Positions 3,100 through 39,403 of a DNA stretch of 53,870 nt are shown here, in pieces (position 1 is the first letter of the stretch; every line of letters begins with the position of its first letter). The stretch is taken from positions 1 to 53,870 of the forward strand of contig NZ_JABRWJ010000020.1 of the NCBI RefSeq assembly GCF_013266755.1, written 5' to 3'. Source of the DNA: Pseudaquabacterium terrae. Its GTDB lineage: Bacteria > Pseudomonadota > Gammaproteobacteria > Burkholderiales > Burkholderiaceae_C. The translations under genes were made by a program, and so were the position numbers. The notes below the pieces were generated by a model. That model was not told where the DNA came from and ran no database searches. It was given only the letters and a program-made list of their open reading frames with translations.

Positions 3100-3316
3100 C
3101 TGCACATCTCCCATAGACAAGCGGCGACGTTCCGCTTGCTCGTGCTGAGTTGCCCAAGCTGGCTCACGGTGCCGGACGCGGTCTGGACGCGTTCGCGCAA
3201 TTCAATCACAGCCAAAGAGGCTGCGAATGAACAGCCACTGCAACCGATGCCAAGCCGTCGGCCGGCTCATCGGATCGGGGTAAACCCGTCCTCAATCTTG
3301 ATGAAGGAGCAAGGCC

Positions 3317-20681: not shown

Positions 20682-23639
20682 CTAACTTGAGCAAACGCTG
20701 CTCGCGGGAGTCGGCGATGCTCCTTTGTGAAGTGCTCTCTGAAGCGGACTAAGCGCGTCCTGTCCCTGAAGCTGTCCGCAGGCGGCTCGAATAAGTTCGG
20801 TGACATTCCAAGGAGCCACCTGAAGCTCTGGGCCGTTTCCGATTCCTAGCAGTCGCCCATCAGGGCTCAGCACCAGCTTCAATTGACCTCGCCCCAAATA
20901 GCGAAAGATCTGCAGCTCCTTTCTTGACTTCAAATCCCAGATCCGAATGTTGGAGTCCATAGAGCCGGCAATTAGTTGCGCCCCGTCGTTGGAGAACGCC
21001 ATCGTCAAGACCGGAAGTATGTGATCCAAAGTTGCAACTTGTAGGGCGTCCTTCACAGACCACAGTTCGGCAACGCCACTACCTCTTCCGAGGCTAGCCG
21101 TGCCGCCGTCCGGCGACAATGCCACGAAGTTTGCACCAGGGAGCGAAGCGAGGAGTCTATTGGTCCGCAAACTCCATACTTCTGTAGCGCTTGTCCCGGC
21201 GATCAGGACGTTGTCCCCGTTCCTATCAAACGCAACACCTGTTAGGTGACCGATAGCTGCCGTCCGTAACCGAATTTCGGCCTTGTCAATGTCGTAGACA
21301 ATTGGGTTCTGGTATCCGCAAGCAATGAATCGACCTGCTGCGTCGAATCTTGTTGCCTGGGAGACACGGCAATCAGGATCGAGATCCGCGATCTTGCGAG
21401 AGCTGCCCCCCTCTACTTCGTAGATCGCGCCTTCGCTTTCGGCCAGAAGCTTACCGCGCACATTGAATCCCACCGCGGAGATCCGACCAGAGAAGCTCGC
21501 CGATTCGAGTCTAGTCGCGTCGACAGTGCTCCAGGCTTGGACCTCTCGGGAAGTGCTGGCCGCCACCCGTTTTCCATCCGCGCTGAACGCGAGTCCTTCG
21601 AGGGTCCCTGACAGACCCGCTCTGACATATGGCACCTGAAGCGACCAGAGGTCCGCGGATCCGCGGCGGTTGCCTACTAGGAGCTGGCTACCAGCCTCGT
21701 TGAACACGCCGTCGATGACGGGGCCGTCGACTGCAAGCCGTGCTGTCTCCGTGCCGCTGCGAACCTCCCAAACCTGCGCAATGCCGGTTTCCGCCCCGGG
21801 CTCTTCGCTGCCAATGAACACGAGCCGGTTATCCGGACTGAACTTTAGCGAGCGCACGCGTGCCAGACTTCTGAAGGTGACCTCACTGACACGCTCCGCA
21901 TCAGTAGCTCCCGAGACAGACCTAATTCGAACAATTTGGTCCTCGCCTGCAATGCCAACACGCCTCCCATCTGGGGAAAACGCCACTCGAACGGGAACCG
22001 ATGAAACAGCGATTGTTTGTGTCACCTGCCTTGTTCTGGTGTCAACAATGCGCACCTCGCGATCGGTCGCGATTATCACTGCCGATCCGTCCCGATTAAT
22101 GGCCGCGGCGCGGATCCGCTCGGTGGCAGGCCGCACAGGCAGCTTCTCATGCCTCTGAGAGGAATCGAGAAGTTTCCAAACATTCAATTCGGTGCGATGA
22201 GAAAAGCCTTCCGGCACAATCGATGACACCAGCAAATGCGTTCCGTCCTGGCTAAATTCCAGATAGTCAACGTAGCCAGCGGCCGGCCCGAGGGACGTCG
22301 GCTGCGAGTGATCACCAATCCTGGAAATCCAAACTTCATTGCGTGCTACTGCAACCAGGCCCTGAGGCGCGAAGGCTACGGAGTCGCTGACACGACCGGG
22401 CATTGGCTCCGCCATCAGTTGTCTGCTTCTGAGGTTTACGATAGACAGACCAGCCGCTACGGTTGCACCGATCGGCTCATTCCCGTGGAAGGAAACTCCC
22501 AGCACGCCCGCATTGTGGAAGTCAAAGTGACCAAGCCGCTGTCTGAGCAGTGGAGCAACTTCTTGGAGTGTCGCAAACGCGCTGCCGCGCATGTCCGCCG
22601 GAAGCGAAGGCAAACGGCTTCGCAGGGTCGCCGCGCGTTTAAGCGACTCGATTGCCAAGAGCGCCGAAAGTGCCGGCATGGCTTTCCTACTTGAGGACTC
22701 CGCCGCCAAGTGCTGCACGATTGCAGAGTCACGTAGCTGTTCCGCATCGCTGAGGTCCTTGACTGCCCTCGCCGTTGCAGCCTTCGCCCGATACGACTCA
22801 ATCGTCAATCTTGCCGCCACCTGCCGACTGCGTTCTGCCCTTTCGCTTTGCTCTTTGGCTTCCCGCGCCGCGGAACTGGCGGCCTCCTGCTGCAAGAGCG
22901 CCTCAGCCCGCGCAGCAGACGCAGCCCCGGCTGCGGTGCTCGCGGCTTCAATGCTCTCGCGTCGTTGAGCGTTGGCACGGTAGACAAGAAGTCCCAGGAC
23001 TAGAAGAACCAGCGCGAAGCACGAAGAGGCGAAGCGCTGTCGGCGGCTCAGATTCCAGAAGCCAATGCTATTGCGGATCCGCGCGACGATGCCCGCCGAA
23101 GGTTCAAGGTCTTTGCGCTCCGAGCTATCAATCTCTTTCGTGCGCGCCACACCAGCGATATGGGGCCACCAAGCGGAGCCTTCGACTGGTTGACCAAGTT
23201 CGATTGGAAGGATGGGGCCTCGACTCCACCTTTCAAAGACGATGACTTCCTCTGCCACGTGCCGAGAGGATGCGGCCTTCGGTGTGACGATGATGACCAG
23301 CACCTTGCTAAACGCGATTGCGAACCGCAACGACAATGGGAGGGTTGCGTTCGGTCGCGTCTCCTGCATATCAATCCGGACCGAAGCGACCGCTCCTAGT
23401 GAGTTACTAAGCGTTTCTGCATATGCGGATCCGTCTTCGCGCGCGTACGACACAAAAGCATCGAAGCCGAACAGCAACTTTGCTGGCAATGTGATCGCCC
23501 TCGCAAGCCATATCAAGGGGGAACGCCAGCGTGCTTGTGCCACGCTTGAGGCGGTTCGTGGAGTCATCGAAGCGCGGCTTACTTCCATCGGGCATCGGTT
23601 GGTGTTTCGCTCAGGTGGTACCTTGCCTGTCAGACGCAT
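20682..23639 (-). CDS. TIR domain-TM-coiled coil-WD40 repeat protein
   Basis: 985 residues. An N-terminal TIR domain spans about 56-175 (FDAFVSYAREDGSAYAETL; glutamates 130-131 in SSRHVAEEV sit where the TIR catalytic Glu is expected). One membrane segment lies at about 204-220. A long Ala/Glu/Arg-rich coiled coil covers about 225-310, and a WD40 beta-propeller of many blades fills about 350-960 (SPDGRRVGIAG, FSPDNRLVFIGS, IRIWDLKSRKELQIF). The layout places TIR and propeller on the same side of the inner membrane as a sensor-effector. The first ATG is used; ATGs at residues 18 and 25 are alternatives before the TIR. GC is clearly below the neighbours, with more A/T-ending codons, which suggests horizontal acquisition. 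It is oriented tail-to-tail with the TIR-NACHT gene. Function is inferred as immune-type signalling. Confidence 0.8.
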   Translation of the reverse strand: MRLTGKVPPERNTNRCPMEVSRASMTPRTASSVAQARWRSPLIWLARAITLPAKLLFGFDAFVSYAREDGSAYAETLSNSLGAVASVRIDMQETRPNATLPLSLRFAIAFSKVLVIIVTPKAASSRHVAEEVIVFERWSRGPILPIELGQPVEGSAWWPHIAGVARTKEIDSSERKDLEPSAGIVARIRNSIGFWNLSRRQRFASSCFALVLLVLGLLVYRANAQRRESIEAASTAAGAASAARAEALLQQEAASSAAREAKEQSERAERSRQVAARLTIESYRAKAATARAVKDLSDAEQLRDSAIVQHLAAESSSRKAMPALSALLAIESLKRAATLRSRLPSLPADMRGSAFATLQEVAPLLRQRLGHFDFHNAGVLGVSFHGNEPIGATVAAGLSIVNLRSRQLMAEPMPGRVSDSVAFAPQGLVAVARNEVWISRIGDHSQPTSLGPAAGYVDYLEFSQDGTHLLVSSIVPEGFSHRTELNVWKLLDSSQRHEKLPVRPATERIRAAAINRDGSAVIIATDREVRIVDTRTRQVTQTIAVSSVPVRVAFSPDGRRVGIAGEDQIVRIRSVSGATDAERVSEVTFRSLARVRSLKFSPDNRLVFIGSEEPGAETGIAQVWEVRSGTETARLAVDGPVIDGVFNEAGSQLLVGNRRGSADLWSLQVPYVRAGLSGTLEGLAFSADGKRVAASTSREVQAWSTVDATRLESASFSGRISAVGFNVRGKLLAESEGAIYEVEGGSSRKIADLDPDCRVSQATRFDAAGRFIACGYQNPIVYDIDKAEIRLRTAAIGHLTGVAFDRNGDNVLIAGTSATEVWSLRTNRLLASLPGANFVALSPDGGTASLGRGSGVAELWSVKDALQVATLDHILPVLTMAFSNDGAQLIAGSMDSNIRIWDLKSRKELQIFRYLGRGQLKLVLSPDGRLLGIGNGPELQVAPWNVTELIRAACGQLQGQDALSPLQRALHKGASPTPASSVCSS

Positions 23640-23990: not shown

Positions 23991-26900
23991 TTAGAGCAGT
24001 GGGACGCCGATGCCAGGCTGGTCCGTCTCGGGATAGTGAGTGACACAGTCGTACCGCTCGCGGACCGCCGTCAGCGCTGCGCTGCCCCACACCTCGGTCA
24101 GCCGGTTGTTGTAGTTGAAATATAGTTCCTTCCGATCGCCACCGTACTTTAGGAGCCGCGCGATCGCCTGCCGGTCGGGATGACAGAAGTGGTCTCCATT
24201 CGTGGAGATCAGGTAGCGCGAGCAGTCGAGCAATTCCATCAACTCGCGGCTCACGTTGTTCTGGCTGCCGTGGTGAGAAACCTTGAATAGGTCGAGTTTC
24301 AGGCGCGACACACCGCGTTGGTCCAGCAGCGTCTGAATTGAGGAAACTAGGACCGGCGCGTGGGCGTCGGCCGCGAGCAGCACGCTCTTGCCGCCGAACT
24401 CCGCCAGCAGCGCGATGCTGCTGCCGTTCGGAGCGCCGGCATCACCGGTGAACTTGACGTCGGCCAACTTGTCGACGTCCTGCAGCGTGGCCGCATCGGC
24501 AATCGTGCTGCCCGTTGCCTTCAGTAGGCGGCTGTAGTCAACGCGCCCGCCCGGCTCCAACCCCTGGCGCTTGAGCTCGCGTTTCCACACTGGGCCGAGC
24601 TTGGCGAGGCTTGCACGCGTGGGCGACAGGACGGTCAGCTTCATACCCCCCGGCAAGATGTGATCGAGCAACGTGTCGTCGCCGGTCACGATGGCGGCGC
24701 CGTCGTGCCAGCGGTTCCACGGCAACTCGAGGTCCATGATCGCGGTGGTGAACATCTCCGCCTGGCGGGCGCCGAGTTGCCCCGCCACGTGGCGCCAGCC
24801 GTTGAACCACAGGTCCCCCAGGCGCAGGCCACGCCTGACGGCCCTCAGCATCGGCACGGCCCCGCCGATGTGATCAGCATCGATGTGCGAGAGCACGAAC
24901 AAGTCGAGCACCCGCTCATGCGGCGGTAGCGCGTCAATTCGCGTCAGGAGGGACTTCGAGGACCCTTGCGTTCCGCAGTCGATCAGGACCCGATGCCACG
25001 GCGGGCGATCGCCATACTCGATCCAGATGCAATCGCCGTGGCCGGCGGGCAGGGCTTCAATATGGAACGCCGGCCCGTCGCGCCGCTCGCCGAGCGTGGC
25101 GAAAAGCCTGGGCTTCGTCCCGCTTGTTGACGCCGACGCCGACGCGGCACCGCCGGTGGCGCCCGCTACCGGTCCCCCGCCATATGTCGACGGCGGAGCC
25201 GGCCCCGCAGGCGGGGGTGCCGGGGGCGGGGGCGGGGGCGGCGTACCGCCGCCTACCTCCCGAGGGCCGTGACGGGCCAGGATGTCGATGAGCCGCTGCG
25301 CCGTCTCGACCAGCCCGTTGCGACGACTCCACGTGTCGCGCCTGTCTTGAGCGCCCGGCGGCATGGCCTCGCGAAAGGCCGCCGTGCCCCACCAGGACGC
25401 ATAACGCTCAAACTGCCGCCGGGTCGATTTCACCGGAAAGGCGTCGATGCGCGGGTAGGCGGAGTCGAGTTCCTTGGCGTGCGCGAGCGCTTCATCGGCG
25501 AACTTGCCCAACTGCTCTTCCGTCAGGCCCGGGTCGGCAAGGCGAATGAGCCGCAATTCGGCCAAGCTGGCATGCGCCCATGCGCGTTCCTCTGGATCGC
25601 GATGGTCTAGGTAGTGCTCAGCCGCTAGCCAAGCCGCCTCCCACTCGCCGGGACGAAGCTCACGTCCGAGCACCTCGGCAAGCGAGACCAACTGAACCAG
25701 CACCCAGTGCAAGGTCGCCTTGCGCTGTACCGCCTGCACGTCGTTGACGAGCAAGCCGCGCACGGCCTGCGCGTAGTAGGTGCGCGCCTGATCGAGGAGC
25801 ACATGCTCGCGCTCGAAGGGAACACCGGCCGCGGACCCGCGTTGGCTCGCGATCGCGAACGCAGCCTGCGCCATGCGCTTTCGGCTGCTCGCGCGCAGAC
25901 CCAAGCACTCGACCGCGAATTGTCCGTTGCCCGGCAGCCGCTCGATGGCGATCGACACCGCCTTGAGCGGCTCGACCAGTCCGTTCGATGCGTGTGCTCC
26001 TGAGGCAGCGGCCAGATCGATCCCCTCGAGCGCCGCGTTCATTGCCAGCCTGGCCTGCGAATAGCGCAGGGCCTCGATCTGAAGGTCGAGGTTCGGCGGC
26101 AGGGATTCGTACACGACGATACTGGCCCAGTCGTGCCACTGCGTACCGAAGCGGGCATGGAGTTCGCCGCGCGCCTGCTGCAGTACATGCAGCGGATGCT
26201 CGCCCCACAGAAGTCCTTCATAGAGTCGTGCCGTGAGCGGCACCGAGCCCGGCTTGCTGAGCGGAAATTGGGATCCGATGACCAGCGGAATGCCGGCCTG
26301 ATGGAGGGCATGGGCGAAGCTCGCGCCCGGCGCCACTACCGACCCGACATTGCCGCTGTCGCAACTTGCTATCGTCACGACGGTCGGAAGACGTCCCAGC
26401 GGGGTGATGGCACTGACGAAGCGTCCACCAGGGACGACCTCCGGCGAACCGTCCTCGCCCCGCAGAACGACGCCGTATGATTCGCTCGAGAAGTCATCCA
26501 CATCGCCATGGGTCAGCACGTGAATGTGGGTGAAACGCTGGGCTTCGCACTCGTGCCGCACCTGTGCAACGGTCGGGCCGACCAGAATCGTGAGGTGATC
26601 GCCGAATTGCTCGCCGCCATCGGTGCGCGCTGTCCTACCGCGGTCGGACTTCGGAGGGTAGAGAAATGGCGTGATAGCTGTGACGAGTGCGGCGCGATGC
26701 GCTTCGAAAGGCACGTCGTCCCGGTCGGAAGCCACGAACAGAATGCGCGGACGCTCGGGCCACGCGAAACCGTCGGAGGGTACCGTGCGAATGTGGCGGG
26801 TGACCGCGACCGGCGGACGCGTCTGGACCGACACCGCGGACGCCGTGGAACCGACCGGCACTTCTGCGAGCTCGAACGGCAGCAGGGCAAGCTCCGCGGC

Positions 26901-27239
26901 CGACAAGGTGAGGCGCAGGTGCACGAGGGTGTTCGTACGCCCTGGCTCCGCGGACACGGCCCCGGTGAATCCGGGCACCGACTCGAGGATCCTGCCCATG
27001 TCGCGGCCGATCTCGTGGAGCATGTCGAGCCGATCCCGCTCGTCACCCGTTTCGTACCGCAGTTCCTTCAAGCGCCGTTCGAACACGCGCTGCTCGTACG
27101 GCACCGTGACGACGGCCGCACCGGCGTCATTACACACCGCGAGGTATTGCGTGTATGGCGAGAGCAATTGATTGTGCGAGGGACCCGGGCGTAGGAATTC
27201 GACGCTCACGCGTCGGATCGCAATCGGCTCACTATTCAC
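23991..27239 (-). CDS. CHAT protease-helical linker-MBL-fold fusion protein
   Basis: 1082 residues. Residues about 1-410 hold a CHAT (caspase-HetF-associated) protease domain: the dyad is His244 in HVLTHGD and Cys293 in IASCDSG, followed by the typical FAHALHQAGIPLVIGSQFPLS. Residues about 420-650 are helical, TPR-like. A proline/glycine-rich linker (about 661-700) leads to a ComEC-type metallo-beta-lactamase domain (about 720-1082; GHGDCIWIEYG, LSHIDADHIGG, KVSHHGSQNN, HPD). The MBL motif has Asp in place of the second His (HxDxDH), a variant seen in several ComEC-like MBLs. CHAT proteases in conflict systems cleave partners after activation; MBL domains of this type are nuclease- or hydrolase-like. 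The GTG start (27239) has GGAG six bases upstream; an ATG 15 codons earlier lacks one. Divergent from the patatin operon. Confidence 0.82.
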   Translation of the reverse strand: MNSEPIAIRRVSVEFLRPGPSHNQLLSPYTQYLAVCNDAGAAVVTVPYEQRVFERRLKELRYETGDERDRLDMLHEIGRDMGRILESVPGFTGAVSAEPGRTNTLVHLRLTLSAAELALLPFELAEVPVGSTASAVSVQTRPPVAVTRHIRTVPSDGFAWPERPRILFVASDRDDVPFEAHRAALVTAITPFLYPPKSDRGRTARTDGGEQFGDHLTILVGPTVAQVRHECEAQRFTHIHVLTHGDVDDFSSESYGVVLRGEDGSPEVVPGGRFVSAITPLGRLPTVVTIASCDSGNVGSVVAPGASFAHALHQAGIPLVIGSQFPLSKPGSVPLTARLYEGLLWGEHPLHVLQQARGELHARFGTQWHDWASIVVYESLPPNLDLQIEALRYSQARLAMNAALEGIDLAAASGAHASNGLVEPLKAVSIAIERLPGNGQFAVECLGLRASSRKRMAQAAFAIASQRGSAAGVPFEREHVLLDQARTYYAQAVRGLLVNDVQAVQRKATLHWVLVQLVSLAEVLGRELRPGEWEAAWLAAEHYLDHRDPEERAWAHASLAELRLIRLADPGLTEEQLGKFADEALAHAKELDSAYPRIDAFPVKSTRRQFERYASWWGTAAFREAMPPGAQDRRDTWSRRNGLVETAQRLIDILARHGPREVGGGTPPPPPPPAPPPAGPAPPSTYGGGPVAGATGGAASASASTSGTKPRLFATLGERRDGPAFHIEALPAGHGDCIWIEYGDRPPWHRVLIDCGTQGSSKSLLTRIDALPPHERVLDLFVLSHIDADHIGGAVPMLRAVRRGLRLGDLWFNGWRHVAGQLGARQAEMFTTAIMDLELPWNRWHDGAAIVTGDDTLLDHILPGGMKLTVLSPTRASLAKLGPVWKRELKRQGLEPGGRVDYSRLLKATGSTIADAATLQDVDKLADVKFTGDAGAPNGSSIALLAEFGGKSVLLAADAHAPVLVSSIQTLLDQRGVSRLKLDLFKVSHHGSQNNVSRELMELLDCSRYLISTNGDHFCHPDRQAIARLLKYGGDRKELYFNYNNRLTEVWGSAALTAVRERYDCVTHYPETDQPGIGVPLL

Positions 27240-27922
27240 GCCGCGCTCCTCGAAACTTCCCGCTCCGCCTTGTCGCCAATCCATGTCGAATTGAAGTCTA
27301 GGACCGGACCGACGCGAGTTGAAGCATGCACTATTGCATGGGATCAACGGATTAGCAACTTCGCCGGTCGAAGTGCCCGGCGGTCGCCATTCCTCTGCAG
27401 CCGCAATCATCAGTTTTGTGGAGACGCCTGGACGCCGGTCCGGCCGCGCTGCACCGGGCCTCGTCGCCCTGGAGAATTCCCCTGGGCACTGTGGCGGTTG
27501 CTCCCCGTGCACGGCGGATTTATGTGTCACATGCACACTTGGCCGATCCAGGCACCCAGTCGTCTTCATGTCGCGGTAGCACCGGCAGTCGTTGGCCTGT
27601 TCAGCGGCTGTACCGTCATGCCCCCCGTGCGCCCTACCCCTGCCCTACCCCCGCCATGTCGACGTTCGCGACGGAATGGCTGTGTCGATTGAAGCAAGCA
27701 ACGCGTCGGGTTCACCGAGTGAAGATGAACGACGGAGACCGCATGATCAACACCTGCGCCGAACCCAAGCCAAAGGCACTAGTGGTACCGCATTGACTCT
27801 GCATGCCTTACTCGTTAGGCTGCGTCGCTCACGGAGCAAGGCGCGGCGGGCACTGGCTCGGGGGCCCGCAAGATGTGGTGAGCCGCCTTGCTGAGGATCG
27901 ACCAACGATCGAGGGAGCAGCC
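27240..27922. other. Divergent intergenic region of the CHAT-MBL / patatin module
   Basis: About 680 bases between the CHAT-MBL and patatin starts. It must carry the promoters of both transcripts. It contains a 6-4-6 palindrome at 27325-27340. Other open frames lack start signals and protein-like composition. No IS end was recognised with confidence. Confidence 0.45.
27325..27340. promoter_or_regulatory. Short palindrome, possible operator
   Basis: CATGCA-CTAT-TGCATG, perfect 6-bp arms, located about 85 bases upstream of the CHAT-MBL start codon and near an AT-richer patch. It would suit a dimeric regulator controlling the minus-strand transcript. Evidence is position and symmetry only. Confidence 0.3.
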
Positions 27923-28936
27923 ATGGCAGTCGAAGTGAGTGGGAGCTCGCACCGAATCGGTCTGGCGCTGTCGGGCGGAGGCTTTCGGGCGGCCGCGTTC
28001 CATCTAGGCGTGATGCAGGCTTTGCACAGGCTCAGGCTCCTGGACAAGATCGACCTGCTGTCATGCGTGAGCGGCGGCAGCATCGCCGGGGCAACGCTAG
28101 CGCTGCACTGGAGCGATGGCCAGGCGCTTCAGCAGTTGGATACCTACCTTCGCACGACGTCCATCGCAGTTGCCTCGGCTATCGGAGGCATCCTCGATCC
28201 TTTCGAGTCCCGGCTCGACAAGCTCGCGCACTCCTACGATCGCGACTTGTTCGGCGGTCAGGCGCTTGCGGCGCTCAGCGCAGGGCCGCGTATCTACCTG
28301 AACGCCACGAACCTGGCGACGGGCAACATGTTCTTCTTCGTCGCCGGCGGAAGCAAGCCGACAGAGATGGGTGACCATGAGATGGGAGTCTGTGCCGCTG
28401 ACGGCATCGCGATCAGTCGGGCCGTTGCCGCATCTTCGGCCTTCCCGCCCGTGTTTGCCCCGCTCAAGCTTGGCCCTGAACTCTACCCCCACGCCGCGCC
28501 CATCGACTACGTGACGCTGACCGACGGCGGCATCTACGACAACATGGGCGTGAACCCGGCGTTGCGCACCGATCGCAACCCGCTGGACTACCTCATCATC
28601 AGCGACGGCGGAAAGCCGTTCGCCAATCAGTCCGAGCCGACGGGCAAGGGCTCTGTCGTCCTGGTCGCCGCGCTGGACATCATGATGGAGCAGATCCGCG
28701 GTCTCGAGTTCGACCGCGTCCAGCACCGCCACCTTGCTGGCAAGGGACCGAAGCCCCTGTGGTTCTCGATCGACAGCGAGATCGGCGAGGAGCGGCCGGG
28801 AGACGCCGTGTTCGCCTCGTCGATCGGCACGAACCTGAAGGCGCTGCGAGGTCAGGAGATGGACGTGCTCACGCGTCACGGCGGCGCGCTCGTGACGTCG
28901 AGACTCGCGAAGTACGCGCCGGAGCTGATCGCATGA
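27923..28936 (+). CDS. Patatin-like phospholipase
   Basis: 337 residues. The Ser/Asp dyad of patatins is complete: oxyanion-hole loop LSGGGFRAAAFHLG at 16-29, nucleophile Ser53 in CVSGGSIAG, and Asp201 in the DGG motif TDGGIYDNMG. Such enzymes hydrolyse membrane phospholipids; in bacterial immune systems (for example CapV of CBASS) they are effectors that degrade the cell membrane. There is no signal peptide, so it acts from the cytoplasmic side. GAGGGAG precedes the ATG at 27923; the frame is open further upstream but without support. First gene of a four-gene plus-strand operon (gaps 30 and 14 bases, then a 4-base overlap). Confidence 0.9.
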   Translation: MAVEVSGSSHRIGLALSGGGFRAAAFHLGVMQALHRLRLLDKIDLLSCVSGGSIAGATLALHWSDGQALQQLDTYLRTTSIAVASAIGGILDPFESRLDKLAHSYDRDLFGGQALAALSAGPRIYLNATNLATGNMFFFVAGGSKPTEMGDHEMGVCAADGIAISRAVAASSAFPPVFAPLKLGPELYPHAAPIDYVTLTDGGIYDNMGVNPALRTDRNPLDYLIISDGGKPFANQSEPTGKGSVVLVAALDIMMEQIRGLEFDRVQHRHLAGKGPKPLWFSIDSEIGEERPGDAVFASSIGTNLKALRGQEMDVLTRHGGALVTSRLAKYAPELIA

Positions 28937-28966
28937 AATGGTGAATGAACGCCGGGGAGGGCGGGC

Positions 28967-29893
28967 ATGAATGGAGTGTCGCCGCGCGGATTACCAGGGT
29001 TGCTGTTTTTCCTGCTCGTGGTCGTCTGCCTCTGGTCGCTGGGCAACGTCGCAAACTTGTTGCGAGGCGATGGCCTGCGTGCTGCCGGGGTCTTCGATGG
29101 CATCGGCGCGACTCGGGCGACGGGAGAACCAGAAGGCGAAAACTCGTCCGGGAAGGCTGCCGCAAGGAAGGCCGCCGACCCCGCGAGTGGCGCAGCTTCG
29201 CACAGTGCGCCCGTCGAGGGAGCCAAGGGGAGCGATGCGTCGTCTGATGACAAGCGCAACACGGCCGAGACGGCGCGCGTGCCGAGAGATGCCGAGCTGC
29301 TTTCGGTGCTCGTGTTCCTGTGCGGGTGTCTCGGTGCGTCGTTGCATGCCCTGGGCTCGTTGGTGGCGTTTACCGGCCTCGGCACGTTCAGCGCCACGTG
29401 GACCCTGTGGTACCTCGCACAGCCGCTTCGCGGGGCAATCCTCGCGTCAGGCTTCTTCTGGTTGATCCAGGGCGGCCTGTTCGGTGGCATTGCCGCAAAC
29501 CTGCCAGTGAACGTCGTGGCCATGATGGGTGCGACGTTCCTCGTCGGACTGTTCAGTGACCCTGCCATCGAGAAGCTGAAAGAGGTATTCCAGGTCTTGT
29601 TCAAGACGGAGACCGTCCGGGGCGCCGGCGATCAGCCGAAGGCCCCTTCGATCCGCAAGGCGGTCTACGAAGGCGGGCCACCGGTTCTGATCAAGGTCGA
29701 GGGGGAAGGATTCACGGCCACGGACCTCGTCAAGGTCAATGGTCAGGCAGCTACTGTGAGTCAGCGCGATGCGACCACGATGACGATCGACCGGCCCGCG
29801 CCCGAGCAGAAGGGCGCCCAGCTCAGCATCGTCGTCACGCATAGCGGGCCTCGAGGGCAATCGTCGAAGCCGTTCGTACTAACCGTGCCGTAG
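28967..29893 (+). CDS. Membrane protein with C-terminal IPT/TIG-like Ig domain
   Basis: 308 residues. A first membrane segment at about 8-30 (LPGLLFFLLVVVCLWSLG) is followed by a low-complexity Ala/Gly/Ser/charged loop (about 40-105). Two or three more hydrophobic segments lie at about 110-195, then a helical neck (DPAIEKLKEVFQVLFKTE), and an Ig-like fold at about 222-308 resembling IPT/TIG domains (VLIKVEGEGFTATDLVKVNG). It probably anchors the module at the membrane and displays an Ig-like recognition domain. No catalytic motif is seen. It lies 30 bases after the patatin stop and 14 bases before the peptidase gene. I do not recognise a named family; the IPT assignment rests on pattern. Confidence 0.65.
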   Translation: MNGVSPRGLPGLLFFLLVVVCLWSLGNVANLLRGDGLRAAGVFDGIGATRATGEPEGENSSGKAAARKAADPASGAASHSAPVEGAKGSDASSDDKRNTAETARVPRDAELLSVLVFLCGCLGASLHALGSLVAFTGLGTFSATWTLWYLAQPLRGAILASGFFWLIQGGLFGGIAANLPVNVVAMMGATFLVGLFSDPAIEKLKEVFQVLFKTETVRGAGDQPKAPSIRKAVYEGGPPVLIKVEGEGFTATDLVKVNGQAATVSQRDATTMTIDRPAPEQKGAQLSIVVTHSGPRGQSSKPFVLTVP

Positions 29894-29907
29894 GGGGAGC
29901 TTGGAAG

Positions 29908-31689
29908 ATGGCCGCTAAGGGAAACACGCAGATGTTCACGATACTCGCTCAGGACCCGGTGGTCCGGGGCCCAGGCGGGGAACTGGTCTTTGCCCGGGTC
30001 GCCGTGCCGCTGGAGACGCTGTCCATCGGTCCGACGGGGTACCGCCTGAAGGTCGTCGATTTCAACGCGTCAACTAACCGCCTGTACGAGGCACACAACT
30101 ACGCGACGGATGCGGACGGCCGGATCGTCGATCCGTACGCTGTCCCAAATACCGGCGGCGTGCGGGCTCGACGCAGATTCGAGAACGACGTGCTCGCCGA
30201 CCCGAAATTTCACAGTCAGAACACGTACGCGATCGTGATGCGAACGCTTGGGCGGTTCGAGCACGCCTTGGGTCGCCGCATCGGCTGGGGGTTCGACGGG
30301 CACCAGCTGCACGTCGTTCCTCATGCATTTGTCGATGCGAACGCTTTCTACTCGCGAGAGGACCGTGCACTGGTGTTCGGATACTTCACCGGCGTCGATG
30401 GCGAACGGGTGTTCACGTGCCTCTCCCATGACATCGTCGTACACGAGGCCACGCACGCGATCCTCGACGGATTGCGAGCCGGCTTCATGAACGAGTCCGG
30501 CCCTGACCAGGCCGGCTTCCATGAGGGCTTCGCGGACGTGGTCGCGCTGCTCTCGGTCTTTTCGCTGAAAGAGATCATTGCGCTCGCCCTGACCGGCACC
30601 GACAGCCTGCCGGTCCGGACGACCGACGGTATCCGCCTGATCGACGGCAACCGCCTAAGCGCCCAAGCCTTGGCCGACGGGATCCTGTTCAGCCTCGGCA
30701 AGCAGTTCGGCCAGCAACTGGACGGGTTGCGGGCAAACGCGCTGAGGCAGTCCCTGAAAATCAAGCCCAGCCGCAGGTTGCTGCAGACCGAGGCGTACAA
30801 CGAACCTCACTCCCGGGGCGAGGTTTTCGCCGCGGCCATGCTGCGCAGCATGCTGGAGCTGTGGTTGCGCCGCATCAAGGAACTCGGGACATTCGGTCCC
30901 GGCATGTACAACCTCGATGCGGTGATTGCCGAAGGGGCGAAGGTAGCCGATCAACTGCTGACCATGGCGATCCGGGCGCTGGACTACTGCCCGCCGCTAG
31001 ACCTCGAGTTCGGAGACTACCTGGCTGCGTTGCTCACCGTCGACTCGGAGGTCGCCCCGGACGACTCCCGATACGGCTATCGCGAAACCATCCAGAAGAC
31101 GTTTGCCTCCTACGGGATCGATCCTCCATCGGCCCGCACGGAGTCCGATGGTTGTTGGAAACCCTTCACCGCGCACGACCAGACGCAGTATCACAAGACC
31201 AACTTCGACTCGATGCTCCGCGACTGCGAGGAGGTGTTCCGCTTCCTGTGGGAGAACCGAGCGCTGCTCAACGTCGATGACCAAGCCTACACACAGGTCA
31301 TCTCGGTTCGGCCGAGCGTCCGGTTCGGCCCGGACGGGTTCCTCTTGAAGGAGACCGTCTGCGAGTACACGATGAAGGCCAACATCTTCGGCGCGGAGAT
31401 CACGGCCGTTTGTGGAATCAAGCGGCCCGCCGGCATCGAGACGACGACGCGCCTGACCGTCTATGGCGGCGGCACGCTCGTGTTTGACCCGTACGGGCGG
31501 ATCAAGTACCACATCCAGCGCCCCCTAAGCGACGGAGCATGGCAGGAGAAGCGCATTCAGTACCTGCTGGAGCAGGGCCTCATTGGCGCACAGGAGCCGG
31601 ATGTCAACCCCTTCGCCGAAGTCCATCGGCTTCGAGCTTCAGCGGCCAGGAACCAGGACAGCGCGAGCAAGCCGGAGGTGAACGCATGA
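29908..31689 (+). CDS. Gluzincin-type zinc metallopeptidase-like protein
   Basis: 593 residues. HEATH at 179-183 is an HEXXH zinc site. HEGFADVVA at 205-213, 22 residues downstream, supplies the expected third ligand (Glu206) and the following Asp, as in thermolysin-like gluzincins. The flanking sequence (SHDIVVHEATHAILDGL, GPDQAGFHEGFADV) also fits that fold. The N-terminal about 150 residues and the C-terminal about 200 residues match no domain I know; the C-terminal part is beta-rich. There is no signal peptide, so the peptidase would act in the cytoplasm. In the context of patatin, CHAT and MBL proteins, it may process or activate partners. GGGGGAGC lies before the ATG, and its stop overlaps the MBL start (ATGA). 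Confidence 0.75.
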   Translation: MAAKGNTQMFTILAQDPVVRGPGGELVFARVAVPLETLSIGPTGYRLKVVDFNASTNRLYEAHNYATDADGRIVDPYAVPNTGGVRARRRFENDVLADPKFHSQNTYAIVMRTLGRFEHALGRRIGWGFDGHQLHVVPHAFVDANAFYSREDRALVFGYFTGVDGERVFTCLSHDIVVHEATHAILDGLRAGFMNESGPDQAGFHEGFADVVALLSVFSLKEIIALALTGTDSLPVRTTDGIRLIDGNRLSAQALADGILFSLGKQFGQQLDGLRANALRQSLKIKPSRRLLQTEAYNEPHSRGEVFAAAMLRSMLELWLRRIKELGTFGPGMYNLDAVIAEGAKVADQLLTMAIRALDYCPPLDLEFGDYLAALLTVDSEVAPDDSRYGYRETIQKTFASYGIDPPSARTESDGCWKPFTAHDQTQYHKTNFDSMLRDCEEVFRFLWENRALLNVDDQAYTQVISVRPSVRFGPDGFLLKETVCEYTMKANIFGAEITAVCGIKRPAGIETTTRLTVYGGGTLVFDPYGRIKYHIQRPLSDGAWQEKRIQYLLEQGLIGAQEPDVNPFAEVHRLRASAARNQDSASKPEVNA

Positions 31690-32978
31690 CAACGAAGACG
31701 CCCGTCGCGGTTCACATCTTCGCGTACCAGGTCGGTTTCGGCGACTGCTTCTTGGTCCGCTTCCGCTACGCAGTGGGCCCAAGCCGTCACATCCTGATTG
31801 ACTTCGGATCCATGGGCATGCGCAAGGGGACCGCCGCGGCCGACTGGATGCTCAAGATTGCCAACGACATCGCCGACAAGTGCGAGGGCAAGCTAGACGC
31901 GGTGATCGCTACGCACCGCCATGCCGACCACATCAGCGGCTTCGCGACGAACAAGACGGGAACGGCCAGTGGCAACATCATTGCTAGCTTGACCCCTTCG
32001 GTCGTCGTTCAACCGTGGACGGAGCAGTTGGACCTGGCCGAGGATGCGGTGGCTCCCAATGTCGCTCACAGCGCAAAGGCTCGATCCGCCGCGTTAGCGC
32101 TGCGGAGCATGAACGCCGTGGCCGGATCGGCGCTGGCGCTTGTGTCGGCAAAGGGACATGGGCTTGCCCCCGCGCTGGCAGCACGCCTGGGTTTTCTCGG
32201 TGAAGACAACATATCGAACCTCTCGGCGGTGAAGAACTTGGCCGCGATGGGTCCGAATGTCTACACGTTCCACGGTGCTTCGGACCCGCTGTCCAAGGTA
32301 CTGCCCGGGATCAAGACGCACGTCCTTGGGCCGCCGACCGTCGAGCAGACGGATTCGATCAAGAAGATGCGCTCCCGCGATCCGGACGAGTACTGGCACT
32401 TCCAACGCATGCGGATGGCCACCGAGGTGGCGACCTCGCAGGACACCGACGAACCGTTTCCCGCTGCTCGAAGCATACGCGGCACGCGTTTGCCCATGAG
32501 CACGCGCTGGGTCGCGAAGCGGGTGAGGGATGTGCGCGGCAGCCAGTTGCTGCAGATCGTGACCTCGCTCGACAAGGCAATGAACAACACGAGCCTGATC
32601 CTGTTGTTCGAGGTGGGAAAGAAGAAGTTGCTTTTCCCGGGCGATGCACAAATCGAGAACTGGAGATACGCGTTGAGCTTCCCGAAGATTGTGAAGCAGT
32701 TGACGGAGGTCGATGTGTTGAAGGTTGGGCACCACGGCAGTCTGAACGCGACCCCCAAGAGTCTGTGGGGTGCGTTCGCGAAGAAGGGCACAACCGCGAC
32801 TCCGAACCGATTGAAGACTGTCCTATCAACCATGCCGGGGAAGCACGGCGATGAAGCACGAAAGACGGAAGTGCCGCGAACGACCTTGGTCAATGACCTA
32901 ACAGAACACTCAGAGCTTCACAACACCCACGACCTTGGCGAAGGGGAACTCTACAAGGAAGTGGTTCTTGAAATCTGA
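31686..32978 (+). CDS. ComEC-type metallo-beta-lactamase fold protein
   Basis: 430 residues. The N-terminal GFGDCFLVRF and ILIDFG strands are followed by canonical THRHADHISGF (HxHxDH at 77-82). A long insertion (about 100-290) precedes LLFPGDAQIE and the DVLKVGHHGSLNATP strand near 345. These are the motifs of the ComEC/Rec2 C-terminal MBL group, which includes DNA-degrading enzymes. Unlike the MBL domain fused to CHAT in the divergent gene, it retains both motif histidines. The start overlaps the peptidase stop by four bases, so the two are translationally coupled. It is the last gene of the module; the next 660 bases are relic DNA. Likely substrates are nucleic acids or signalling nucleotides, which is inference. 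Confidence 0.82.
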   Translation: MTTKTPVAVHIFAYQVGFGDCFLVRFRYAVGPSRHILIDFGSMGMRKGTAAADWMLKIANDIADKCEGKLDAVIATHRHADHISGFATNKTGTASGNIIASLTPSVVVQPWTEQLDLAEDAVAPNVAHSAKARSAALALRSMNAVAGSALALVSAKGHGLAPALAARLGFLGEDNISNLSAVKNLAAMGPNVYTFHGASDPLSKVLPGIKTHVLGPPTVEQTDSIKKMRSRDPDEYWHFQRMRMATEVATSQDTDEPFPAARSIRGTRLPMSTRWVAKRVRDVRGSQLLQIVTSLDKAMNNTSLILLFEVGKKKLLFPGDAQIENWRYALSFPKIVKQLTEVDVLKVGHHGSLNATPKSLWGAFAKKGTTATPNRLKTVLSTMPGKHGDEARKTEVPRTTLVNDLTEHSELHNTHDLGEGELYKEVVLEI

Positions 32979-33641: not shown

Positions 33642-34625
33642 TCAGTTCAGCTTTATCCGCATCGCCCTGAAACGCTGCCCGGTCTTCGGTGCAGCGCCGC
33701 ATTCCACCTCCGCGCTGTTCGCTCCGTCGTCACTCAGCAGCATCAGCTGCTGACCGTCGAAGTTGAACGCGGCTTCGGCATGGAATCCTGGGGCGAGCTC
33801 TGCTCGTAGCCGCGGCGCCTCCAGCGGCTTGCCCGACCATTGATAGAGCGCAAAACCCCCGGCATCCGCCACGGGCCCGGCAACGATCAAATACTGGTCT
33901 GCGGCCCGCTCGATGCTGCGAACGCCACGGCCGCCCAGGTCCAGTAGGACGGGATCGGCGAACGCGGGCTTGGCGCCCTTGATGACGTCCGCAGGGTTCG
34001 CAAGCGGAACGAGGATCGCCTTGCCCTGGCTCAGCGGGTTCCTGAATCCGATCAAGAGGCCGCCCTCAGGGGTTGCTGCCAAGCCCTCGATGTTGAGCCC
34101 ATCCTCTTGCTCGGGCTTCTTCTTGGCCGCCTTGCCGAGTTTCAGGCCTTGAAGCGCCGGCGCAGCTATCAACTCCTGCAGCAGGCGCTTGAAGGGTTCG
34201 CCGGTTGGGCGAACCGTCGGCGCCGCGCCGGCGCCAGGTTCGATCTTCGTGGCGAAAATCCTGTGTCTGCCTTCGAGGAACTTGCCCTTGTTGCCGGTCA
34301 GGCTGTGAGAGGAGATCCAGTAGACGACGTCGCCCACGCGAGCGGCGCCCTCGATGTCCGAAGCCTTCGCTCCGGCGCCGAGGAACTGGCGCAAGTCGAC
34401 CGGCTGCCCGACCGGTGCCGCTTGGCCTGCTCGATAGACCCGCAGGACATTGCACTCGTCGTCCGCGACGACGAAGTGTTGTGCATCGAGCATCGCAGCA
34501 GCTGATGCCTCGGCCATGCCGGTGTAGCGCTCGACCGCTGGCGGTTGTGCATGCGCCGCGAAGGGGACAAGGGATGCCCACGTCACCCAGGCTACGGCGT
34601 GAAGTGCGCGGGCAGTTTGTCCCAT
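33642..34625 (-). CDS. Exported DUF3616-family protein
   Basis: 327 residues: a signal peptide (about 1-25, ending AAHA-Q) followed by a single beta-propeller-like domain characteristic of DUF3616 (AEASAAAMLDAQHFVVADDECNVLRVY, DIEGAARVGDVVYWISSHS, DGLNIEGLAATPEGGLLIGFRNP). The family is periplasmic or secreted; its function is unknown. The ATG at 34625 lies two bases after the stop of the nuclease gene (TGACGATG), so translation is coupled. Its partner is a secreted RNase/DNase fusion, suggesting extracellular or periplasmic nucleic-acid or phosphate scavenging, or toxin-related work. Confidence 0.8.
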   Translation of the reverse strand: MGQTARALHAVAWVTWASLVPFAAHAQPPAVERYTGMAEASAAAMLDAQHFVVADDECNVLRVYRAGQAAPVGQPVDLRQFLGAGAKASDIEGAARVGDVVYWISSHSLTGNKGKFLEGRHRIFATKIEPGAGAAPTVRPTGEPFKRLLQELIAAPALQGLKLGKAAKKKPEQEDGLNIEGLAATPEGGLLIGFRNPLSQGKAILVPLANPADVIKGAKPAFADPVLLDLGGRGVRSIERAADQYLIVAGPVADAGGFALYQWSGKPLEAPRLRAELAPGFHAEAAFNFDGQQLMLLSDDGANSAEVECGAAPKTGQRFRAMRIKLN

Positions 34626-34627
34626 CG

Positions 34628-36043
34628 TCAAGGCCTGCAGTTCTGCACCAGCATCCGGCCGTGCGCCGGGAAGTCGACGAACGGGTTTCTCGTGCCCTGG
34701 AGCAGCTGGATCCGGTCATTGCGCCGGACCTCGTCGGCAGCCGGCTCGGTTTGCTCGTGCCAGGCAACGTACATCGCCCACTCCGGCTCCGACAGCCGCA
34801 CGCCGTAGGCGAGCGCCATGTGCATCACCGATCTCGCCAGCCGGCCTCGCGCATGCTCGGCGGGTTCCACGACCGTGACCTTGCCGCCGCCCGGCCGCTG
34901 GATGGACTCGACCTCGAAGTCGCACGCCGCGAGCTCAGCTCGGTTGGAGTTCGAGAAAGTCCACTGCTCGCCAGGAATGTTGTCCGTGAGCGCGAAGTTG
35001 GAGCGTGCCTCGTTGACCTTCAGGATCGAAGGCCACAGGTTGTGCAGGTCGCCCTGGCCGGCAGCCACGTTGATCTTGCTCTTCGGCAGCACATGCTCGA
35101 TGTTCAACGCCAGGCCGCCGGCGGTCTTGCGATCGGCACCTGGGGCGAACGGCGCCTGGCAGTAGATCTCTTCGCCACCGTTCGGATACAGGGACCACAG
35201 TGCCTGCTTCGCGGCCGACTTGTAGCCGCCAAACTTGCCTTGGCGCGTCGGACACGCGACGTCAACTGCGTCCGGCGGCTCGTCGATGTCCGGCGGAGGT
35301 GGCGGGGGCGTGGTCTGCCGCGGGGCCCTGACCTTGACCTGTTGCCCGTCCGGGGTTCCACCAGCGGGACAGGCAATTGGCTGCGGGTTGCCGCCGGAGC
35401 TGAGGCAAATCCAGATCTCCTTGAGCCGGTTGCCCGAAGCGACGCTGACCCGCACATTGTTTCGAGCTAGCTTGCCAGGGTTCTGATCGACGAAGGCTTG
35501 TTTGATCTTGCCGCTGGTGACCGACGCCGTTCCAGCGGCGGCACCGCCAGCGGCCATAGCCGCAAAAGCCGGCCGCTTGATCTGCCCCAGGAGCGACTCG
35601 ATGGTGTTGAAGTAGGCTGGCGCGTCGTCCCACGCGCACGTGCCGTGCGCCTGCCACTCGTTCTGCATGAGGTCGGTGCCCGGCACAGAGCACAAGTGCC
35701 GCTTCAAGAGGTCTACCGGCAGCGGTCCGGAGGTCTTGCAGTGCCGCGGATGATCCTGGGCCGAGTGGGCCTGCTGGCTCTGCGGCCAGAGGCCATGGAC
35801 GACAAACTCGAAGTTGTTCAGCTGGCACTGGTAAGCGTGCTTGGCCCGCTGGGCGGAACTCGTCTGCTGCGCGCAGTGCTCCGGCGACCACGACAGCACC
35901 AGCGCCAGGTAGTCCGTCGAGACGTCGGGATTGCGCCAGTCCGGCTGCCGTACCGCCGGCTCCTTGATCGTCTGCGGCAACTGGCAGGTGGCCTGTCCCC
36001 ACGATAGGCCAGCCGAGGCGAGCAAGAGACTGGCGAGGCGCAT
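34628..36043 (-). CDS. Secreted RNase T2-endonuclease I fusion nuclease
   Basis: 471 residues with a signal peptide (about 1-17). Residues 40-260 are an RNase T2 domain: CAS I is VVHGLWPQ (His83) and CAS II is NEWQAHGTCAW (Glu129, His133). The usual Lys before that His (EWxKHG) is Ala here. A proline-rich linker (TTPPPPPP, about 280) leads to an endonuclease I/NucM-type beta-beta-alpha-metal nuclease domain (about 290-465) with IEHVLPKSK (His near 316), GDLHNLWP and NEARSNF. Several paired cysteines indicate an oxidised, extracytoplasmic location. The start at 36043 gives the signal peptide; a longer reading frame exists without one. Both domains degrade nucleic acids (T2: RNA; EndoI: DNA and RNA), so the product could clear all nucleic acids outside the cell. 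Coupled with the DUF3616 gene. Confidence 0.85.
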   Translation of the reverse strand: MRLASLLLASAGLSWGQATCQLPQTIKEPAVRQPDWRNPDVSTDYLALVLSWSPEHCAQQTSSAQRAKHAYQCQLNNFEFVVHGLWPQSQQAHSAQDHPRHCKTSGPLPVDLLKRHLCSVPGTDLMQNEWQAHGTCAWDDAPAYFNTIESLLGQIKRPAFAAMAAGGAAAGTASVTSGKIKQAFVDQNPGKLARNNVRVSVASGNRLKEIWICLSSGGNPQPIACPAGGTPDGQQVKVRAPRQTTPPPPPPDIDEPPDAVDVACPTRQGKFGGYKSAAKQALWSLYPNGGEEIYCQAPFAPGADRKTAGGLALNIEHVLPKSKINVAAGQGDLHNLWPSILKVNEARSNFALTDNIPGEQWTFSNSNRAELAACDFEVESIQRPGGGKVTVVEPAEHARGRLARSVMHMALAYGVRLSEPEWAMYVAWHEQTEPAADEVRRNDRIQLLQGTRNPFVDFPAHGRMLVQNCRP

Positions 36044-36236
36044 CGGACTGAACGGGCACGTTGCGTCTGCGCCCTCGCCTCGAGGCGGCGTGAGAGGTCC
36101 GGCATCGATCGTCTCCCTGAGGCACGCGGTGGTGGCGCGCTCACGCTCCATTCTCGGGCTAGAGCGCTGCTTTTGGTTTCATCAACCTTGGGGAGTGCCT
36201 TGGGGAGACTGTCGAGCCATCGCAAGCGGGCACTGA

Positions 36237-38264: not shown

Positions 38265-39403
38265 TTCAGCTTCTCCGCCAGCCACGCGGCGAGCTGCCCG
38301 GGCGTCATCGCGCCCACGTGCGCGCCTGCCTCGACCAGCCGCGCGGCCAGCGCGCGGTCGTAGATGGGGTCGGCGCGTTCGTCCAGTGCGGCCAGGCCCA
38401 GCACCTGCGTACCCTGCCCCACCAGCGCACGCACGTGGTCGACGAGCACGTGCTCGGCCATGCCCTCGAAGAAGTCGCTGATAACCACCATGATCGCGCG
38501 CCTCGGCACCTCGATGCGCTCGGCGGCGTAGCCGACGGCCTTGCCGATGAAGGTTCCACCGCCGAGCTGCACGCCCATCAGCACCTCGACCGGATCTGTG
38601 ACGTTGTCCGTCAGGTCGACCACCTCGGTGTCGAAGGCGATCAGATGGGTCTTGATGCCGGGCAGCCCCCACAGGCAGGCGGCGGTCACCGCGGCGTGGA
38701 TCACCGAGCCGAGCATGCTGCCGCTCTGGTCGACGAGCAGCAGCACCTGCCAGGGCTCGAGCACGCGCTGCGTGTTGACGTGGAACAGCGGCCGCTCGAT
38801 CACCAGCCGGCCGCGCTGCACGTCGTAGTGGCGCAGGTTGCGGCGCAAGGTCTCGCGCGCGGCGAACTGCGCCGCGGCGCCGGTGAGCGACAAGCGCTGC
38901 GGCTGGCGCCGGCCGTTGAAGGCGCGCCGCACCTCTTTGGCGAGCTTCTCGATCAGCTCGCGCACGACCTTGGCCACCAGCTGGCGCGCCATCGCCAGCA
39001 CCTGCGGATTCATCAGGTGCTTGGTGCGCAGCACGGCCTGCAGCAGCGCGGGGTTCGGTGTGGCGCGCTCGAGGACTTCGAGGTTCGTCACCACCTCGTC
39101 GATGCCGTAGCGCTCGATCGCATCGCGCTCCAGGCGTTCGATGGTTTCCTTCGGGAACAGCTCGTGGATCTGGTTGATCCATTCGGGCACGCTGAGCTGC
39201 GAGGCCTCGCTGCCGCCGTGGCGGTCGAGCGTGTCGCGCGCCTCGGGCCCGTCGCCGGGCTGCGGGTCGTCGCGGCCGTAGAGCCAGGCCAGCGCGCGGT
39301 CCATCGGCGCGCCGGCGCCGCCGGGGCCCAGGCTCGCCGCGCCAGCTTCACCGAGCAGCAGGCGCCAGCGCTCGGCATCGTCCAGCGTCGGCAGTGGCTT
39401 CAT
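38261..39403 (-). CDS. yehP: VWA-domain protein of the MoxR operon (YehP/CoxE-like)
   Basis: 380 residues. An N-terminal helical region is followed by a von Willebrand A domain with an intact MIDAS motif (VDQSGSM near residue 222) and the downstream Asp/Thr positions (AFDTEV; GGGTFIGKA). In MoxR-VWA systems this protein pairs with the AAA+ ATPase as a chaperone that remodels or assembles target complexes, using the metal ion to bind substrates. The ATG overlaps the DUF5682 stop and its own stop overlaps the SWIM start, so the three genes are translationally coupled. It is cytoplasmic, with no signal peptide. Confidence 0.88.
   Translation of the reverse strand: MKPLPTLDDAERWRLLLGEAGAASLGPGGAGAPMDRALAWLYGRDDPQPGDGPEARDTLDRHGGSEASQLSVPEWINQIHELFPKETIERLERDAIERYGIDEVVTNLEVLERATPNPALLQAVLRTKHLMNPQVLAMARQLVAKVVRELIEKLAKEVRRAFNGRRQPQRLSLTGAAAQFAARETLRRNLRHYDVQRGRLVIERPLFHVNTQRVLEPWQVLLLVDQSGSMLGSVIHAAVTAACLWGLPGIKTHLIAFDTEVVDLTDNVTDPVEVLMGVQLGGGTFIGKAVGYAAERIEVPRRAIMVVISDFFEGMAEHVLVDHVRALVGQGTQVLGLAALDERADPIYDRALAARLVEAGAHVGAMTPGQLAAWLAEKLK

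Follow-up and report, generated by a model that had tools for sequence, protein, structure and literature searches.

A zincin gene paired with a ComEC-like metallo-beta-lactamase gene, next to an exchangeable lipase and a CHAT-MBL fusion

Introduction

A 53,870-nucleotide stretch of Pseudaquabacterium terrae DNA (contig NZ_JABRWJ010000020.1; hereafter the window) carries five neighbouring genes that bring together two predicted proteases, two metallo-beta-lactamase (MBL) domains and a lipase. On the minus strand lies a fusion of a CHAT protease to an MBL domain (CHAT-MBL); on the plus strand follow a patatin-like phospholipase, a protein labelled TM-IPT, a zincin and a stand-alone MBL. An earlier, sequence-only reading had taken all five as one system, and the locus raises the question of which of these genes belong together. 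We found that the zincin and the stand-alone MBL form a real and widespread module, whose pairing is firm. The locus as a whole is probably best read as two neighbouring effector modules, each made of a protease and a predicted gated MBL pro-nuclease, with one lipase between them.

Nuclease-protease pairs of this general kind are known from phage defence. According to passages of Tuck et al. 2025 (PMC12799240), the MBL nuclease of Hachiman is a proenzyme in which two insertions lie over the active site and are cut by a partner trypsin-like protease, matching defence and cleavage data exist for AVAST, and a caspase-nuclease (Canu) locus protects E. coli from phage T4. The same passages describe the two-insertion layout for HamM, Avs1a and CanC, treat co-evolution with a protease and insertions that block the active site as hallmarks, and place nuclease relatives beside proteases of "other diverse families", of which the main text names only caspases. 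That main text contains none of the words zincin, metalloprotease, patatin or CHAT; the paper's fig. S2 may list metalloproteases. In a literature search by titles and the opening lines of abstracts, no unit of metalloprotease, MBL and lipase was recognised, PMC12799240 being the nearest. Passages of PMC7159879 report metallopeptidases as rare effectors in VMAP-type systems and passages of PMC8195603 report inactive zincin domains in iSTAND2 systems; the zincin-MBL-lipase unit does not appear in these or in the corresponding passages of PMC12419801.

Results

The zincin and the stand-alone MBL recur as a co-varying pair

Zincin homologues were searched for in plasmids, GTDB contigs, 398 genomes of the phylum, 399 of the order and 21 of the genus. 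We define 42 core zincin loci by a hidden Markov model (HMM) match at E <= 1e-100; near-copies are kept among them (L018/L019, L002/L003, L024/L031, L082/L083, L023/L028), while 29 loci with weaker matches to the zincin family, A1 (L072-L079, L085-L105), and L175, a second site in one plasmid record, stand outside. The plasmid records are 21 fetched of 109 matching at E <= 1e-3, mostly by rank and with near-copies skipped. An MBL of the same class as the window's stand-alone MBL (A2) is the next gene downstream in 34 of the 42 core loci, and one further pair at a contig end (G533) makes 35 of 42. The converse also holds: all seven A2-class MBLs found in the 399 order genomes, with at most four candidates scored per genome, adjoin a zincin, and all ten plasmid records that match the window MBL at E <= 1e-8, several of them near-copies, have a zincin alongside.

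The two proteins also vary together. Their pairwise distances are strongly correlated (Mantel r = 0.84, n = 27), both within the larger clade (0.90, n = 18) and within the clade of the window (0.83, n = 9). This set comprises 27 of the 34 pairs, with near-copies (L003, L019, L083) and loci whose MBL is split, weak or oddly framed (L026, L038, L084, L158) left out. Across the ten loci that bear a patatin, the zincin-MBL correlation is 0.91, compared with 0.41 for patatin and zincin and 0.31 for patatin and MBL. Because zincin and MBL distances correlate far better with each other than either does with the patatin, the co-varying unit is the zincin with the MBL. Co-evolution of protease and nuclease is thus seen for this pair; adjacency or fusion of the two is seen both here and in CHAT-MBL.

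The zincin itself resembles the M4/M36 gluzincins (thermolysin, fungalysin). In Pfam its sole match is M36, below the cut-off (7.6e-5), and its match to a thermolysin PDB profile is weak (E 0.034). An alignment of 21 zincins nevertheless shows HExxH with a distal Glu ligand, the gluzincin pattern, which is known here from sequence. Unlike those enzymes, the window zincin has no hydrophobic N-terminal segment, and its N- and C-terminal parts are unmatched. In six loci the zincin open reading frame (ORF) is long at its N-terminus, where an S8 peptidase lies in L025, L063 and L082 according to Pfam and in L022 and L029 according to the annotation of the records; the sixth, L083 (unscanned), resembles L082. 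Within the genus the family is present in four of 21 genomes, a patchy distribution, and two of those four have a caspase-type neighbour.

Other genes lie beside or near the pair. On two closely related Hymenobacter plasmids an LmuB-like ATPase (PADLOC 2.2e-20 and 3.9e-24) stands directly 5' of it, so that ATPase, zincin and MBL run in tandem (L024, 6481-12273; L031, 4514-10261), possibly as a Lamassu-type system with a metalloprotease-nuclease pair. CBASS, SIR2 or DarT-type genes neighbour the zincin-MBL loci in several records, and a DUF3616 gene recurs near them, identified by Pfam in the window (33642-34631, minus strand), by annotation in L026, L037 and L038 and by HMM in L025.

Both MBLs carry extra length across the active site

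The stand-alone MBL (PF00753, 1.3e-6) has the HxHxDH motif that the sequence-only reading had assigned to it. Together with the acid D and HHGS, this motif is present in both window MBLs, whose metal sites are intact, and the MBL catalytic residues are invariant in an alignment of 22 MBLs. The top PDB profile match of both proteins is ComEC 9ic4 (1.7e-5 and 1.3e-11). In PADLOC the stand-alone MBL matches the same set as the CHAT-linked one (LmuA, DRT MBL and Avs1a), more weakly.

From HxHxDH to HHGS, the window's stand-alone MBL has 272 residues. Across classes this distance is 117-128 in ComEC (all 19 sequences), 197-222 in CHAT/caspase-type MBLs (all 12), 200-245 in trypsin-paired MBLs (all three) and 270-338 in zincin-paired MBLs (all 29). 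The extra length in both ComEC-kind MBLs of the window fits protease-activated nucleases. Within the variable part of the span, the near-invariant dipeptide Pro257-Phe258 is a candidate recognition or cleavage point.

The pair often adjoins an exchangeable lipase

A lipase adjoins 17 of the 35 zincin-MBL pairs, if we count as adjacent the window patatin, with TM-IPT in between, and the lipase of L022, with a small coding sequence on the opposite strand in between. It is a patatin in ten (the window, L023, L028, L033, L034, L063, L064, L065, L066, L081), a Tle1-like DUF2235 protein in six (L018, L019, L022, L032, L036, L069; L018 and L036 checked by Pfam) and a phospholipase D (PLD) lipase in one (L027, by record annotation). 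Lipases were recognised by HMMs built for this study and by record annotation, so others may be missed.

The window patatin has the GGGxR loop, the G/C-x-S-x-G nucleophile and the DGG motif. It forms one clade with the patatins of L034 and L066 (100/100), which ties it to zincin operons. Elsewhere in the patatin tree, patatins from zincin operons are interspersed with ones from CHAT/caspase-type-MBL operons, in the sister groups L065 with L126, L064 with L128/L129 and L033 with L041, all of them starred. As in CBASS with CapV-type effectors, a patatin lipase here sits in a conflict operon; in contrast to CBASS, the operon has no cyclase, the PADLOC match is weak (3.7e-4) and the patatin travels with protease-MBL pairs.

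Lipase type switches often among these loci (six changes by parsimony on 16 labelled rows), and seven of the 42 core zincins lack the MBL. Both facts suit an alternative account in which one cargo carries three toxic effectors, the zincin, the MBL and the lipase, that act independently, each on its own target and with no processing of the MBL by the zincin. We consider this unlikely: zincin and MBL distances follow one another much more closely than they follow those of the patatin, no A2-class MBL was found without a zincin (seven in the 399 order genomes, ten plasmid records), and extra length in the active-site span is a hallmark of processed nucleases named in the passages of PMC12799240.

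The CHAT-MBL fusion is a probable one-chain relative of Canu

CHAT and caspases belong to the same clan. CHAT-MBL matches CHAT (PF12770) and, at E <= 0.01 in Pfam, no C14 family; its catalytic His and Cys are invariant in four aligned sequences (alignment A7). The two halves of the protein also occur apart. Homologues without the MBL (L040, L039) align from ORF residue 118, the CHAT half occurs without an MBL in Paraburkholderia and Methylobacterium records, and in L041, L042 and L043 the MBL half is encoded separately, in an operon where a caspase is annotated. The CHAT-linked MBL shares 32-42% identity with five MBLs, of which three lie in a caspase operon by annotation and one by Pfam, CanC being outside the set compared. 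Its PADLOC matches are LmuA (9.1e-66), DRT MBL and Avs1a; against Avs1a in NCBIfam it reaches 2.1e-54 and 184.8 bits, where the cut-off is 420. A model of this nuclease domain has a ComEC-like fold with two low-pLDDT stretches where the extra length falls. In 13 sequences of the CHAT/caspase type, one Gly of the first insertion is shared by at least 65%, and no residue of the second reaches that level.

We therefore read CHAT-MBL as the fused form within a CHAT-MBL group that is probably related to Canu. It shares with Canu (CanABC) an MBL of apparently related class with two low-confidence stretches and a cysteine protease of the caspase kind; it differs in having CHAT in place of a caspase, protease and nuclease in a single chain, and no separate CanB. 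We do not class it as Canu, because a caspase and the three-gene layout were looked for and neither was found. The likeness of its MBL to Avs1a recalls AVAST type 1 (Avs1a MBL, Avs1b trypsin-STAND), but the window operon holds no STAND NTPase or trypsin. That a protease and its predicted substrate share one chain argues for their coupling.

A search of the order genomes for the CHAT-MBL class (A3) gave 13 matches in nine of 399 genomes at E <= 1e-20, among them trypsin-linked MBLs in G417 and G518, which the class as searched also takes in. Eleven loci were fetched, and in four (L124, L126, L128, L129) a patatin lies beside the unit. The genome of the window itself holds two further MBLs of this class, L126 (G000 C3) and L130 (G000 C1). 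In L126 a patatin, the MBL and a CHAT gene stand in tandem, and the CHAT gene has a TPR-S match just under the cut-off; in L130 the MBL lies beside a CHAT-ATPase-S8 protein. A protein of 960-1057 aa lies upstream of the MBL in L124, L125, L128 and L129. It has no Pfam match and nothing convincing in the PDB, and its Cys segment lines up with CHAT in a profile comparison that is not significant (E 0.042, probability 1.2%).

One obligate five-gene system is not supported

Could CHAT-MBL instead be the regulator or sensor of the patatin/zincin/MBL operon, so that the five genes form one system? They are divergent neighbours in the window; a caspase-type MBL operon lies beside zincin, MBL and patatin in L081, an MBL of the same class lies near the zincin-MBL pair in L029, and patatins have been exchanged between the two protease classes. 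In the order sample, where core zincins occur in 11 of 399 genomes and A3-class MBLs in nine, both families are present in four genomes, where independence would predict about 0.25. However, a CHAT/caspase-type MBL (E < 1e-40) is found in the fetched flank of only three of the 42 core zincins (the window, L081 and L029; four with the weaker L038), the two families lie at different places in three of the four co-holding genomes (G518, G624, G642), and L126, in the same genome as the window, is a full patatin-MBL-CHAT unit without a zincin. One obligate five-gene system was rejected on these grounds, and the regulator account is improbable. Rare co-location and separate sites fit co-localised defence cargo with a shared lipase, not one obligate machine.

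The sequence-only reading had also taken the two MBL domains as a functional link. They belong to different classes, each with a protease partner of its own, and were rejected as halves of one machine. The neighbourhood searches that this reading proposed gave split results: from the zincin, the stand-alone MBL and the lipase recur and the CHAT-MBL type hardly does, and from TM-IPT almost no relatives emerge. TM-IPT was not found in the fetched flanks of the other 41 core zincin loci. As a conserved component it was discarded: of 300 order genomes three gave a match, one being its own genome and the remaining two matching weakly and in the TM part alone, and one plasmid record matched partially. 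Its hydrophobic segments are present as described, and the IPT part of its label is less secure: the C-terminus matches the NCBIfam "choice-of-anchor Z repeating domain" (2.1e-10), and IPT/TIG in Pfam only below the cut-off (0.02). In another genome (G663; L110, 6989-8597) a gene for a small membrane protein with weak similarity to the TM part comes just before that of a PDC-M48B MBL (5.5e-154), upstream of a gene resembling cas5 by eye.

Tle1-like (PF09994) and PLD lipases are typical type VI secretion system effectors. That the genes are anti-bacterial or secreted degradative enzymes, a cargo of such effectors and not internal immunity, is very improbable: lipases of both kinds do occur in the lipase slot, and downstream there are indeed a nuclease fusion and a DUF3616 protein whose start looks, by eye, like a signal peptide, but a simple scan detected no hydrophobic N-terminal segment in the zincin, MBL, patatin or CHAT-MBL, and neighbours elsewhere include CBASS, SIR2 or DarT-type genes in several records and the LmuB-like ATPase in two loci.

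Discussion

We favour two neighbouring modules of protease and predicted gated pro-nuclease, with one lipase between them. The observed basis is the pairing, the co-variation, the intact catalytic motifs, the extra span length in both MBLs and the exchange of patatins between protease classes. From these we infer proteolytic activation, active-site blocking, DNase and lipase action, sensing and phage defence. A sensor would signal infection, a part that TM-IPT might play here and the LmuB-like ATPase in Hymenobacter. The thermolysin-like zincin, as the activating protease, would cut the long insertion predicted to block the MBL active site; the freed MBL would degrade DNA, the patatin would attack membrane lipid, and the infected cell would die or cease growth. 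CHAT-MBL would work likewise, its CHAT protease being fused to its own pro-nuclease in a single-chain relative of Canu. The sequence-only reading, which had proposed proteolytic activation together with attack on membrane and nucleic acid, was thus right in kind and wrong in assigning this to a single five-gene system.

The zincin-MBL pair shares with the nuclease-protease pairs of Hachiman, AVAST type 1, Lamassu and DRT described in PMC12799240 a ComEC-like MBL with extra span length and a protease gene alongside; it likewise co-varies, and in Hymenobacter it follows an LmuB-like ATPase. It differs in that the protease is a thermolysin-like zincin and not a trypsin, is encoded 5' of the nuclease and, in the window, is unfused to a known sensor, that the span is longer (270-338 versus 200-245 in the three trypsin-paired MBLs), and that a lipase is often the third gene. 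Neither the operon nor CHAT-MBL includes the SMC-like ATPase LmuB of Lamassu, which is present in L024 and L031. An AAA_21/SMC_N-type ATPase lies elsewhere in the window (124-3120, minus strand), more than 20 kb from the operon.

Several results weigh against the two-module reading. Seven core zincins lack the A2-class MBL, and six of them (L030, L067, L068, L071, L159, L160) have a caspase-containing protein directly upstream instead, recognised as amidase plus caspase by Pfam (L067, L159, L030), as caspase by Pfam (L071) or by eye (L068, L160); the seventh, L070, has neither neighbour. No A2-class MBL was found in the fetched flanks of the 29 weaker zincin relatives. Only the best few candidates were scored per genome (three for the zincin, four and five for the MBLs), so unpaired copies could be missed. 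By 18 of the 35 pairs no lipase was recognised with our HMMs and annotation, no gene of the window operon was recognised as a sensor, and the zincin and TM-IPT have no PADLOC counterpart. Finally, an AlphaFold2 model of the stand-alone MBL on three rows had a mean pLDDT of 34.6 and was not used, so blocking of its active site by the insertion is judged from length.

The caspase proteins that the six zincins directly follow are ~950-990 aa long, with Amidase_2 in three of the four scanned and a GHSAG-type hydrolase motif seen by eye; the six zincins and that of L070 form one clade in the zincin tree. Viral contigs gave only remote zincins and no A2-class MBL, beside those zincins or elsewhere. 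In the IMG/VR contigs L169, L171, L172, L173 and L174, MBL relatives stand immediately before a gene whose N-terminus looks trypsin-like by eye, possibly as virus-carried nuclease-protease pairs.

A bolder version of the two-module reading, which we hold as doubtful, is a class of bacterial immune effector whose thermolysin-like metalloprotease would be the activating enzyme in a cascade of proenzymes and would set free not only a gated MBL DNase but also the lipase, whether a patatin, a Tle1-like protein or a PLD, for a joint attack on chromosome and membrane; the lipase slot would be shared with CHAT/caspase-nuclease systems because the partner protease also switches on the lipase. If true, the nuclease fold gated by serine trypsins and cysteine caspases has acquired a gating protease of a third catalytic type, a metalloprotease, with a lipase tied in. 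Proteolytic activation would then be a general wiring principle of bacterial immunity, which a single operon with three active sites and one predicted cut would allow to be tested directly.

Gene positions and other genes of the window

The five genes lie where the sequence-only reading had placed them: all five ORFs are open there, and the plus-strand spacing is exactly as given, with gaps of 30 and 14 bases and an ATGA overlap of 4 bases (Table 1). Its description of two tightly packed divergent transcripts survives in part. We corrected the patatin start to 27923, where homologues begin; with CHAT-MBL starting at 27239 this puts 683 bases between the divergent genes and leaves only the plus-strand operon tightly packed. 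With this start the nucleophile of C-V-S-G-G is Ser50 and not Ser53 as first numbered, and Asp201 stands. The CHAT residues His244 and Cys293 agree with the GTG start (ORF residues 354 and 403 minus 110), and the HEATH zincin is where it was reported. The stand-alone MBL starts at 31686; the first ATG of its ORF, at 31539, is not the start.

Table 1. Positions of genes, domains and motifs in the window
Feature	Position	Strand	Details
CHAT-MBL fusion protein	23991..27239	-	GTG start 27239; ORF open to 27569; order: CHAT protease, middle region, proline-rich linker, C-terminal MBL domain
CHAT domain	26112..26930	-	PF12770, E=6.9e-20, ORF residues 214-486; His244/Cys293 in GTG-start numbering
MBL domain of CHAT-MBL (LmuA/Avs1a/ComEC class)	24087..25067	-	
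First insertion of this MBL domain, approximate	24711..24803	-	Domain residues about 97-127, limits by eye; pLDDT < 50 at 104-107
Second insertion, approximate	24438..24560	-	Domain residues about 178-218, limits by eye; pLDDT < 50 at 181-187, 189-197, 215-217
Patatin-like phospholipase	27923..28936	+	Ser50/Asp201; PF01734, 2.1e-22
TM-IPT protein	28967..29893	+	Hydrophobic segments near residues 3-33, 108-135, 175-201; Ig/IPT-like C-terminus
Zincin (thermolysin/M36-like gluzincin motif)	29908..31689	+	First gene of core pair
Zinc site, HEATH (residues 179-183) and HEGFAD (205-210)	30442..30537	+	H179, E180, H183, E206, D210 invariant in 21 sequences
Stand-alone MBL (ComEC-like)	31686..32978	+	Second gene of core pair; ATGA overlap with zincin
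MBL metal motif HxHxDH (residues 77-82)	31914..31931	+	
Span between active-site halves (residues 86-300)	31941..32585	+	About 150 residues more than ComEC
Pro257-Phe258	32454..32459	+	Near-invariant dipeptide in variable part of span; at each position conserved in at least 90% of 29 sequences, without conservation of the flanks

Outside the operon, the same island holds further conflict-type genes, a TIR-NACHT-FGE-sulfatase protein (16819-19977, plus strand) and a TIR-WD40 protein (20682-23639, minus strand). Downstream lies a fusion of RNase T2 and endonuclease I domains (34628-36151, minus strand). Between 36000 and 50000, GC content is about 70-75% over a DUF5682 gene (39400-41766, minus strand) and a WGR-DUF4132 gene (45414-49472, minus strand), compared with 59-69% elsewhere.

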